Shown here: piece after piece, positions 43,984 to 50,619 of the stretch
Layout: each line of letters opens with the position of its first letter
Position numbering within the stretch: the stretch's first letter is position 1
Source of the DNA: Heliopora coerulea
Taxonomy: Eukaryota; Cnidaria; Anthozoa; Scleralcyonacea; Helioporidae
DNA: 64,000 nt
Reading direction: 5' to 3'
Assembly (NCBI GenBank): GCA_030142905.1
Contig: JASJOG010000052.1
Location: 1-64,000, forward strand
Notes under the pieces: generated by a model
Databases searched by the model: none
What the model saw: the letters and a program-made list of their open reading frames with translations, nothing else
What the model was told of the DNA's origin: nothing
Made by a program: the position numbers and the translations under genes

Positions 43984-46900
43984 ATGCGAATACAAACAGC
44001 GCTCTTGGTGATCAGTCTTTTTGTTACCGCCGTTGTTAGCGGCAGGAAAAAGAAGTGGCTGAAGCAACCGCGGATTGCGGCGACAAAGAACGACCACGGT
44101 AAACTTAAAGAAGAATCAGCGGAAGGTAAAGCTGGCTAAACTAAACGTGCATGCTTTCGCACCATGTATTCAAATACAAATTATATATATATATATATAT
44201 ATATATATATATAGGGCAAAAAGTTAAAAGGTTAATAATTCCCGTAACTGATCTCGAAGAATATCAACATTTCGAGTAAAGGCCCTTCGAGCAAAGGGCC
44301 ATTCTTATATCATATACATATATAACATATATATATAACTTCTAACTCATAACCCTCCTTAACATACAAACATATATGTATATATATATATATATATGTA
44401 TATGTTAAGGAGGGTTATGAGTTAGAGGAAGGTAAACAAAAGTTTTATATAAACTATTCTTTTGATTGTGATTCGGAAGGGGTAATTTACCTCATTTCCT
44501 GCGTTAAGTGTGAAAAGAATTATGTGGGGAGCACTATTACTTCGTTTAGGAAAAGACTTAATCATAAAAGTAGCATAAATAGATATGGAAGGGGACAAAG
44601 GGGAATGGCGGGGGAGCATCTATATGCACATTTTTTTGAAATGGGACATAGGGGGATTGAAGATATGTTAGTCACCATTATAGATAAAACAAATATCAAT
44701 GAACCGACACAAAGAGAGGGATTTTGGGCGTATAAGCTGTACTCATTTATACCACACGGTTGAAATCAAAGAGATTTTTTGAAATTGATTTTAATTTATA
44801 ATGAGTTTGTAAAACGTATATATAGATTTTTAAATTTTGTATGCTTAGGTGTCTTGATAAAGGGGCAGGTCCCCGAAACGTTGGCGAAATAAAGTTTTTA
44901 AACAGTTTTTAGATGATTGGAATATACCTGTGTTTAACTGTGGAGGAAGCGGGTTTGATGATCGATATATATATATATATATATATATATATGTGTGTGT
45001 ATATATATATGTGTGTATATATATATATATATATATATATATATATATATATATATATATATATATTTATATACACACACACACACACACACATATATAT
45101 ATATATATATATTTATATATATATATATTTATATATATATATATATTGACTGAGAAATTATAGCATTTAACTATCGTCTTCAGAGAAGTATCGTGCCCTC
45201 TACGGCGTTCGCTTTTAATTTTACGTTACGTTTATTGTTATCTTTTTGGTGGACACAAATGGAAATCATTTTTGCGGCTGCTAAGGGAGGGACTCAAGTC
45301 TCCTAAGCCTCCCCCCTTGGGTGAGACAGGGTTTGTGTAACTCGGCCAGCACTAGGATGTGTTTATTTGGTGAGTATTGCGATGAGAATGAATCGAGTTC
45401 TATCAGTTGTGTAGGAGATAGAAAAACGCAAGCAATGAGCAGTAATTGTGGTCGTAGGAATAGACGGAATAGCGTTTTGTTTAGTTTGTTCCGGGTAGCA
45501 GAATAAACAAAACGAACAGTATTTGTCCTGTTTTCTGACCTATTCTGGTTATGATAATGAAATAGACGGAATAAGGATCTCTCTGGCTTAGTTTTTCGTT
45601 CTTGTTAAATTTTTCTTGATATTTCAGTGACCAAAAAGTTTGGAATGTCTCTAACAGTTTAACTCTGTTTACATATAAAAATAGGTTACTGCGTAGACAG
45701 TGTGAAAAGTAAAAAGTTCAATAGTTGGTAACTGCCATGATTGATGGTAAAGAATTGTAACGTTTTGACCGAAGGCACTTCTTCAGAGAAAGAAGAAACG
45801 AAGAAAGGGACAGAAGGAAACCTGTTCTCTTCTTTCTCTAACGAAGGGTCTGTTCCAAAAGTTAGAATTCTTTACGATCAGTCGCGGCAGTTACCAAATT
45901 ATAAACTTTTTAGGTCATTCTGCACAGTTACGCTTTTTTCTCAAAGTTGTTCTTAAGCCATTTTTACTTCACATTTTCCCAAAATTGCACTTCCAACATC
46001 AACAACTTTTTAAACTTTGCCTCCCTGAGAGGCTGGCTGATACAGGAAATAAACGCCTACTCGTGAAACAATCAGATTGCAAGCGTTTCCGTATTTGGAC
46101 CGCCCTTTGCCTGGGCGGATCGATAAGACAAGGTATCCTATATATAAAAATATTACGATTGAAATTTTCGCGAGTATCGCACTTTAAAGGATGAAATGAA
46201 ATTTGTTTGCTCAGTAGTACCATAAACCAACTTTTTCGCCAATGACTTCAGTGAACTATCTCCTTTACAATACCTAGAAATAGCTCCAAAGCAAAAGCAC
46301 CGTCATCACGTTCACCACAAGCACCACGATAATCCCCACAACGTTCCTCAAAACCGTCTGATTTTCAAGAAAACAGATGCCATCCCGTATTCTTCGCCAT
46401 TTGCAAGACCGTATGACTGGAACATGTACATCGATGGTCCGTATGGCTGGGGACCTTCGAAGAAACGAAGAGACATAAATGGGTAGGGATGTTTTCTGAT
46501 GTCCAGTAGATAAGAAATGTACATGTTAGTGATAGTAAATCGTCCAGGTTACTATAGTCTTGAGAAAGACTGTTGGTGACTGACGCTTCGACGACCTCAG
46601 CGGCGGTCATCTTCAGAGTCAAAAAGATGACCGCCGCTGAGGCCGTCGAAACGTCAGTCACCAACAGTCTTTCTCAAGACTATAATAACCTGGACGATCT
46701 ACTATAACTAACATGTACCGATTCTCCCGGGTTTAAACCATTTACTTTAGATAAGAAATGTATAACGGAATAGGCACACAAGTCACTACGAGACATTCGT
46801 TCGGAAATACACAGCAAAAAAACTCCGAAAATTCTTGTACATGCAGTTTTTGGCTGTATAGATTAGATTTTAAGTGTAAATATGTAAACTTTTTTATACC

Positions 46901-49900: not shown

Positions 49901-50619
49901 ATCACCTGCAGGTGAATATAACAGTGAAGGCTCAGAAGCAAGATGGCGGCTACCTTTGTAAATGTTAGCGAGAAGATTTTAAAAGTGCTACTTCACTACT
50001 TTCTTTCAAATTATCACCTGTGTAATTATAATAAAACAATTATTAGCGTCAGGCCCAGTGAATATTATTGAAGGGGAATTATTCAACATTATTCACTGAG
50101 CCAGAGGAGAATAACTGTTGAGTAATAATGTATAGGAGTGAATATAGATGCAAATATAGATCCAATTGGTCCGCCATTCAACAAGGTTGAACTCCTATGC
50201 TTGAGATTGATCCAGTTCGACTCTTTAGCAGCTTTAAAGTATAAATACCCGTTTATATATCTATTTATTTATCTATTTATTCGTTTATTTATTATTGATT
50301 TACTGTTACTTGTTTATTTATTAATCTATTTATTTATTTATATATTTACTTATTTGTTATGCTTTCATCACAGTGGCAAAGGAGAGCATCAATTCCGAGG
50401 CCATCATCCAAAATACAACCCAGAAGCTGGATAGATAAATATGGTGTGAGATGGACAAACGACCGAGTGAATGATTACAAATGGGGAGGACGTGAGCCCG
50501 GCGTCACCATGGACGAGTACAGCGGAGGCCCTTATGGATGGAGCGACATAAAACGAAGTAGAATATCTTTGCCAAATAGTGTTGCCTCGCCATGGAACAT
50601 GTACATGGACAAACCGTAA
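43984..50619 (+). CDS. Unknown secreted protein with duplicated 48-residue aromatic/Gly modules, four exons
   Basis: Four exons join in frame: 43,984-44,125 (or 44,098), 46,278-46,482, 47,426-47,837 and 50,374-50,619; GT..AG introns, phases 1, 2 and 0; AATAAA at about 50,786. The product is about 334 residues. Residues 1-20 form a signal peptide (core ALLVISLFVTAVVS). Exon 2 has a His-rich run (HRHHVHHKHH) and PYDWNMYIDGPYGWG followed by KKRR. Exon 3 has a Gln/Pro/Tyr-rich linker, then module 1 (about 199-246). Exon 4 has module 2 (about 271-318) and ends WNMYMDKP. The modules share W[VI]DK.GV[KR]WT, VNDYKWG.REPG and MDEY.GGP[FY]G, 30 of 48 identical by hand alignment. I do not recognise the family. 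Extracellular matrix, mucus, nematocyst or peptide-precursor roles are possible; none is shown. Exon 1 has two usable donors 27 bp apart, both phase 1. Start chosen because it gives the signal peptide. Confidence 0.82.
44177..44400. repeat. (TA)n tracts and 26-bp inverted repeat
   Basis: TA runs at about 44,177-44,212 and 44,378-44,400. Perfect inverted 26-bp arms (44,341-44,366 and 44,401-44,426, reading TATGTTAAGGAGGG.. into the GIY-YIG fragment) flank the second run. Confidence 0.85.
44400..44905 (+). mobile_element. Penelope-like retroelement 3' fragment (GIY-YIG endonuclease)
   Basis: The open frame ending at 44,763 codes a GIY-YIG nuclease domain: GVIYLISC (GIY side), KNYVGST (YIG side), FRKRLNHKSS with the conserved Arg, and a C-terminal REGFWAYKL with the family Glu. 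GIY-YIG fused behind a reverse transcriptase is typical of Penelope-like elements; the reverse transcriptase part is missing, so it is 5'-truncated. The 3' non-coding tail contains a hairpin with GGGGCAGGTCCCC followed by GAAACGTTGG (44,851-44,885). It lies in intron 1 of the secreted-protein gene. Confidence 0.82.
44965..45150. repeat. (AT)n/(GT)n microsatellite
   Basis: A long AT run with TGTG and CACA interruptions. Open frames of alternating Tyr-Ile on both strands are artefacts. Confidence 0.95.
45672..45940. repeat. Family A hairpin repeat, foldback copy
   Basis: Both arms are present: ACTGCGTAGACAGTG...GTAACTGCC on the left and GATCAGTCGCGGCAGTTACC on the right, meeting at CTTCTTCAGAGAAAGAAG. 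It lies in intron 1 of the secreted-protein gene. Confidence 0.75.
46278..46482 (+). CDS. Exon 2 of the secreted modular protein (His-rich, reduced module)
   Basis: The acceptor is TACCTAG and the donor GTAGGG. Codes about 68 residues including the His-rich run and a reduced module copy (DGPYGW, then KKRRDI) that aligns with GGPYGW..IKRSRI of exon 4. It has no long open frame on its own strand neighbourhood, so it is easy to miss. Confidence 0.78.
46515..46745. mobile_element. Family E hairpin repeat, copy 2
   Basis: Arms with GTTACTATAGTCTTGAGAAA and its inverse. The centre has GATGACCGCCGCTGAGGCC followed by GTCGAAACGTCAGTC. It starts about 30 bp after the exon 2 donor of the secreted-protein gene. 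Confidence 0.82.
46978..47395. repeat. AAAT and TACA/CATA tetranucleotide repeats
   Basis: AAAT-type repeats at about 46,978-47,035 and 47,128-47,165, then (ACAT)n with ACGT and ACCC interruptions to about 47,395. It ends about 30 bp before exon 3 of the secreted-protein gene. Confidence 0.92.
48235..48771. mobile_element. MULE-like element with TIRs of about 100 bp and 9-bp target duplication
   Basis: The left end TAGCCTGCGTTGCAGCTCGA and the reverse-complemented right end TAGCCTGCGTCGCAGCCCGA begin inverted repeats of about 100 bp (GTCTGCGTAATAACGAACAA on both sides). Flanking 9-mers AAAACGTTC and TAAACGTTC (8 of 9) look like a target duplication. Long TIRs plus a 9-bp duplication suggest a Mutator-like element; no transposase is recognisable. 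It lies in intron 3 of the secreted-protein gene. Confidence 0.75.
48785..48900 (+). repeat. Short degenerate tandem repeat (GGTATGTGGAG... units)
   Basis: Units of about 20-25 bp containing CTTCCGGTATG(T/C)GGAG occur four to five times with variation. Confidence 0.65.
49840..50125. mobile_element. Dispersed repeat G, uninterrupted copy
   Basis: Matches the split copy at 4,430-4,920: GATTATCGAAAA, GATAATCACCTGCAGGTGAA, AATTATCACC and the AATATTATTGAA/TTCAACATTATT inverted end. It lies in intron 3 of the secreted-protein gene. Confidence 0.68.
50245..50355. repeat. TTTA-rich simple repeat
   Basis: Degenerate (TATT)n just before the exon 4 acceptor; it may serve as part of the pyrimidine-rich splice region. 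Confidence 0.85.

Follow-up and report, generated by a model that had tools for sequence, protein, structure and literature searches.

In the 64,000-nucleotide window of Heliopora coerulea DNA analysed here (contig JASJOG010000052.1 of assembly GCA_030142905.1, positions 1 to 64,000 of the forward strand), a four-exon gene at 43984-50619 encodes a predicted secreted protein with two closely similar modules of 44 residues, A and B. At the level of the sequence, its full-length relatives, its constraint and its gene structure together show that this is a functional gene, so far known from octocorals only. We tentatively suggest, with slightly less than even confidence, that the product is a basic, cysteine-free extracellular matrix protein, which, once secreted, would act as a bivalent linker within the matrix of sclerites or mesoglea. 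What appears to be new here is that the module in exon 3 is near-frozen beside a fast-evolving linker, and that the two module types seem to have arisen before the sampled lineages diverged.

Gene structure and predicted protein

The four exons (Table 1) form a single frame of 334 residues on the plus strand, with an ATG at 43984 and a stop codon at 50617-50619. All intron borders are GT-AG, and the introns of 2152, 943 and 2536 bases lie in phases 1, 2 and 0, which gives one open frame, as a first-pass annotation of the window had stated in saying that all splice phases fit.

The N-terminus, MRIQTALLVISLFVTAVVSG, encoded from 43984, resembles a signal peptide (mean Kyte-Doolittle value of 2.4 over residues 3-18), and by the same scale no further hydrophobic stretch was found beyond residue 20 of the 334-residue protein. 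From this signal peptide it is predicted that the protein leaves the cell. The His-rich stretch and the Gln/Pro/Tyr linker, which the first-pass annotation had described together with the signal peptide, are likewise present. The computed mass of the protein is 37 kDa. Cysteine is absent from it and from its relative in Paramuricea clavata, while the relative in Dendronephthya gigantea has one, at the end of the signal peptide; with the first 20 residues removed, the three proteins have a pI of 9.9-10.1. By the charge-hydropathy plot, a crude measure, both the mature protein and its modules fall on the disordered side of the line.

Relatives and phylogenetic spread

Relatives were sought in 5.8 billion proteins by a search that needs shared 5-residue words and covered lengths of about 68-585 residues, so that relatives outside this range would be missed. 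With the full-length query, 458 candidates yielded two matches at E<=1, namely D. gigantea P0001 (LOC114518330, 313 aa, "uncharacterized"; E 1.9e-119) and P. clavata P0002 (314 aa, "hypothetical"; E 2.8e-113), both without assigned function and both covering 96% of the query. A profile made of the three sequences recovered only the same two proteins at E<=10 among 1794 candidates, in searches that were not aimed at hexacorals by name. Each of the two is 61% identical to the window protein in the alignment, all four exons being represented, and both are colinear with it over the three exon junctions, save that the window protein has SQHH in addition at the exon 3/4 junction and differs in its C-terminal tail. 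Compared with the 2794 six-frame pieces of the window, each matches the four exons and nothing else at E<=0.1.

The D. gigantea protein shares with the window protein the signal peptide, the GRKKKWLK start, the His-rich stretch, the DGPFGWGP motif, the linker and modules A and B; however, it ends in PNRPRK, without the WNMYMDKP tail, and has no SQHH at the exon 3/4 junction. The P. clavata protein has the same layout from the signal peptide through both modules, but carries additional linker residues and also ends in PNRPRK. By its full-length, colinear similarity the window protein is a putative member of the LOC114518330 orthologue group. The first-pass annotation had asked for transcripts joining the exons: at the level of protein records, the same four exons are joined in D. 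gigantea and P. clavata.

A two-module profile search, which covered lengths of about 68-217 residues, found 12 short proteins at E<=10 among 422 candidates. Among these, P0004 corresponds to exon 3 of the window itself and was left out of all module and linker counts; P0003 represents the module B exon, and the other ten carry module A. Octocoral origin is shown for the D. gigantea and P. clavata relatives and is presumed for the others. In a scan of viral_contigs, none of the seven stretches that fitted the pattern was confirmed as a relative (0/7).

No Pfam family reached its own cut-off (best E 0.11, 13 bits against a cut-off of 27), P0001 and P0002 had no match at E<=1 in NCBIfam, a collection of prokaryotic families, and the PDB gave no match at E<=10 by sequence and a single one, at E 0.43, by profile. 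None of these searches gave a significant match. The locus name and five motif strings occurred in none of the 5.39 million papers covered. Papers on sclerite and skeleton proteins, peptides, venom and chitin, all available to this analysis in part, provide context and no identification in those parts (PMC3597568, PMC7853314, PMC11959691, PMC6824150, PMC5976621, PMC9581515, PMC6909153, PMC11896702, PMC10216261). The earlier proposal of a lineage-specific secreted family without assigned role is supported by the full-length relatives in two named octocorals, neither with an assigned function, and the module did not turn out to be a Pfam family of assigned function.

Two modules under different constraint from their linker

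Exons 3 and 4 align with a score of 208, against a mean of 28.7 and a maximum of 66 in 1000 shuffles, which confirms that two related modules lie on separate exons. In a 48-residue frame they are identical at 31 of 48 positions, essentially as claimed before, the recount adding one to the 30 first reported. They contain no cysteine, are rich in Trp, Tyr, Phe, Gly and Pro, and are balanced in charge. The profile of the modules gave no further clear copy among the 2794 six-frame pieces of the window, and it matched, at E<=1, none of eight loci from the same genome (L001-L008, 3014 bases each; 0/8), taken from 40 places drawn by a pattern that is absent even from the window and whose matches carry no weight.

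Where module A and the linker are both present (ten sequences), the module has a mean pairwise identity of 97.4% (minimum 93.2%), whereas the linker just before it, counted from the equivalent of FKR and computed after trimming non-exon residues at the start of open reading frame (ORF) fragments, averages 55.8% (29.8-80.3%). Over 13 sequences, module A has a mean identity of 93.9% (minimum 83.3%) and at least 36 of its 44 positions are invariant; this is a lower bound, as P0012-P0014 begin inside the module and in P0013 and P0014 the initial Met may result from translating a start codon as Met. Module B is 84.5% identical on average in four sequences (minimum 77.3%). Between modules A and B of the window, 86 of 132 bases are equal, with a pS of 0.85, at which synonymous change is saturated, and a dN of 0.27. 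The near-frozen module A, the drifting linker and this contrast between pS and dN point to a protein under strong purifying selection, above all in its modules.

Within one species, A and B are 66-77% identical (three species), a range that touches the module B minimum at 77.3%. Certain residues are nevertheless specific to the type, i.e. WTT versus WTN, A versus N/S before GGP, and F versus W after G. In these sequences such residues group the copies by type, irrespective of species, from which we infer that the duplication probably preceded the divergence of the sampled species. Exon-wise duplication, as proposed in the first-pass annotation, is a plausible origin; however, exon 3 starts in phase 2 and ends in phase 0, so that a clean duplication of a symmetric exon does not fit.

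A possible partial copy in exon 2 and the C-terminal tail

The reduced third copy that had been reported in exon 2 fared less well. A short motif, Y.(G/D)GP(F/Y)GW followed by basic residues, is shared with the modules and kept in all three full-length proteins, but the scores are marginal. Exon 2 aligns with exon 4 at a score of 49 (shuffle mean 27.6, maximum 51) and with exon 3 at 33, within the shuffle range. The module profile gives the exon 2 copy 6.2 bits (E 1.8), whereas an unrelated ORF scores 5.8 bits, and HHalign assigns it a probability of 11% (P 0.0027) over 12 columns. At the DNA level 19 of 26 bases of the shared motif are equal, which is the maximum of 300 codon-shuffled controls. 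The copy possibly corresponds to at most the last 12-15 residues of the module.

A separate likeness is seen between WNMYIDGP of exon 2 (46418) and the WNMYMDKP tail (50593), with 21 of 26 bases equal, against no more than 19 in any of 300 codon-shuffled versions of exon 4. Since this tail was not found in P0001, P0002 and P0003, the relatives that cover the C-terminal end, it looks like a local copy of the exon 2 motif made in this lineage.

Possible role of the protein

We hypothesize that the signal peptide would send the protein out of the cell, that its His-rich and Gln/Pro/Tyr stretches would serve as flexible, metal-binding or cross-linkable spacers, and that the two near-invariant aromatic modules would contact a conserved partner, be it a matrix protein, a polysaccharide or a mineral surface, the whole acting as a bivalent linker of the sclerite or mesoglea matrix. 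The skeletal matrix list of red coral, which also names uncharacterised proteins, includes tyrosinase and haem peroxidase, the latter located in the axial skeleton rather than the sclerites, so that the means to cross-link Tyr-rich proteins exist there; as far as the available part of this source goes, 9 of the 24 octocoral-restricted matrix proteins are strongly alkaline (PMC7853314). Two features weigh against such a role: a near-frozen module of 44 residues would exceed the needs of a bulk scaffold, and the basic site at the end of each module would be compatible with cleavage into peptides as well.

In the latter case the protein would be a precursor of peptides of about 45-55 residues, the main alternative, which we regard as rather unlikely. 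The targets of proprotein convertases would be the basic stretches that follow the exon 2 motif (KKRR/RRRR) and both modules (KR), together with FKR, QRK/QKK and QRR in front of them; cleavage would free ligands without cysteine, constrained along their entire sequence. All 13 module A sequences and all four module B sequences indeed end in KR, the tetrabasic site of exon 2 is present in all three full-length proteins, and near-invariance suits a receptor ligand. However, in a module that is invariant almost throughout, the conservation of KR says nothing in particular, and the main text of an octocoral neuropeptide survey, whose sequences are partly in supplements, has neither of two motif strings (PMC6909153). 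Signal peptide and basic sites are seen by eye, but basic pairs only mildly exceed what composition gives (13, 13 and 15 against 8.4, 8.8 and 9.1 in shuffled sequences of the window protein, P0001 and P0002; P 0.054, 0.067 and 0.015). The several short copies ending in Gly and a basic residue that would be expected of a neuropeptide-type precursor are missing from the window protein; in the three full-length proteins, Gly followed by two basic residues occurs only at the end of the signal peptide, amidation signals being otherwise absent. The sites before the modules also vary, since P0011 lacks both FKR and QRK, P0006 lacks FKR, P0009 has FRR and no QRK, and P0002 carries QRH in place of QRR. 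That the modules themselves are the active products, set free at the basic sites at their ends as cysteine-free ligands of about 45-55 residues that would form a new class in octocorals and be kept near-invariant by a single octocoral-specific receptor or matrix partner, seems improbable.

Quite improbable, in our judgement, is also a protein of cnidocytes, mucus or adhesive glands, even though a composition of Tyr, Trp, His, Lys/Arg and Pro/Gln resembles that of adhesive or sclerotised proteins. The mature protein has no cysteine, in contrast to capsule proteins of the minicollagen type. On the other hand, 28 of 108 non-redundant proteins of a gorgonian venom extract were classed as unknown in the available part of its description (PMC11896702), which leaves room for such a product. 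Chance ORFs or a decayed gene, for which the simple repeats and transposon-like remains in the introns might speak, are scarcely credible, as the frame is intact, four exons match and the full-length relatives are strong.

To our knowledge, octocoral skeletons and colonial tissues hold proteins found in no other animals, many of them without assigned function. A near-unchanged module amid a drifting chain would mark a specific contact and offers a short probe for antibodies, pull-downs and peptidomics. Should the protein prove to be a matrix linker, a toolkit of which little is known would gain a component; should it prove to be a peptide ligand, a new signalling pair would be opened up.

Features of the gene and its surroundings

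Table 1. Positions of the gene's exons and of the elements within and next to them
Feature	Position	Strand	Evidence
Exon 1: start codon, putative signal peptide (about residues 1-20), then basic GRKKKWLK(Q/H)P, conserved mature start	43984..44125	+	P0001/P0002 alignment; six-frame match E 1.4e-07
Exon 2: His-rich stretch and conserved PYSSPF.RPY..NMY.DGP(F/Y)GWGP, then tetrabasic site	46278..46482	+	six-frame match E 1.7e-22
His-rich stretch HRHHVHHKHH	46298..46327	+	
Possible partial, reduced module copy, weakly supported	46403..46471	+	
Exon 3: Gln/Pro/Tyr linker and module A	47426..47837	+	six-frame match E 1.5e-49
Gln/Pro/Tyr linker, fast-evolving	47484..47666	+	55.8% mean identity, n=10
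Module A, 44 residues, TW...KR	47673..47804	+	at least 36 positions invariant, 13 sequences
Exon 4: module B, C-terminal tail, stop	50374..50619	+	six-frame match E 2.1e-34
Module B, 44 residues, SW...KR	50425..50556	+	
WNMYMDKP C-terminal tail coding	50593..50618	+	21/26 bases as in 46418-46443 (exon 2)
AATAAA, candidate polyadenylation signal	50786..50791	+	consensus match only

Intron 1 contains an ORF (44353-44760) with a sub-threshold match to GIY-YIG nucleases (E 0.0018, 19 bits against 22.6), which we take to be perhaps a remnant of a Penelope-like element. Intron 2 holds an inverted repeat at 46519-46718, whose two 95-base arms, 95% complementary and 10 bases apart, resemble a small non-autonomous DNA transposon.

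Further mobile elements lie downstream: two ORFs with Tc3-type helix-turn-helix and DDE_3 domains of a Tc1/mariner-type transposon (53290-54329), a 785-residue ORF with a reverse transcriptase domain of a LINE-type element (56117-58471, minus strand) and the C-terminal region of a hAT transposase (59541-59996). Upstream, the window carries an ORF of a rhodopsin-family G protein-coupled receptor (7640-8557), a 1.4 kb tandem array of ACCT units (11509-12940), a 454-residue ORF without a Pfam match at E<=0.01, possibly a last exon (14155-15516), a 309-residue ORF with an entire Forkhead domain in one open frame (23683-24609, minus strand) and a tandem duplication of two 129-base units that match at 85% (41366-41619). 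The genome from which the window comes comprises 429.8 Mb in 769 contigs.

Comparison with known octocoral proteins

A signal peptide is a general feature of octocoral neuropeptide preprohormones. These precursors are like the window protein in their repeats and basic residues, but in the available part of their description they hold several similar short amidated peptides, whereas the window protein has two long modules without amidation signals (PMC6909153).

The putative matrix linker may be likened, by description only, to Scleritin and further matrix proteins of Corallium rubrum, which, in the parts of the sources available, are likewise secreted, alkaline, specific to octocorals and without domain annotation (PMC7853314; PMC9581515; PMC5976621). 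Scleritin differs in size, running at about 15 kDa on blots (PMC9581515), against the 37 kDa computed here.

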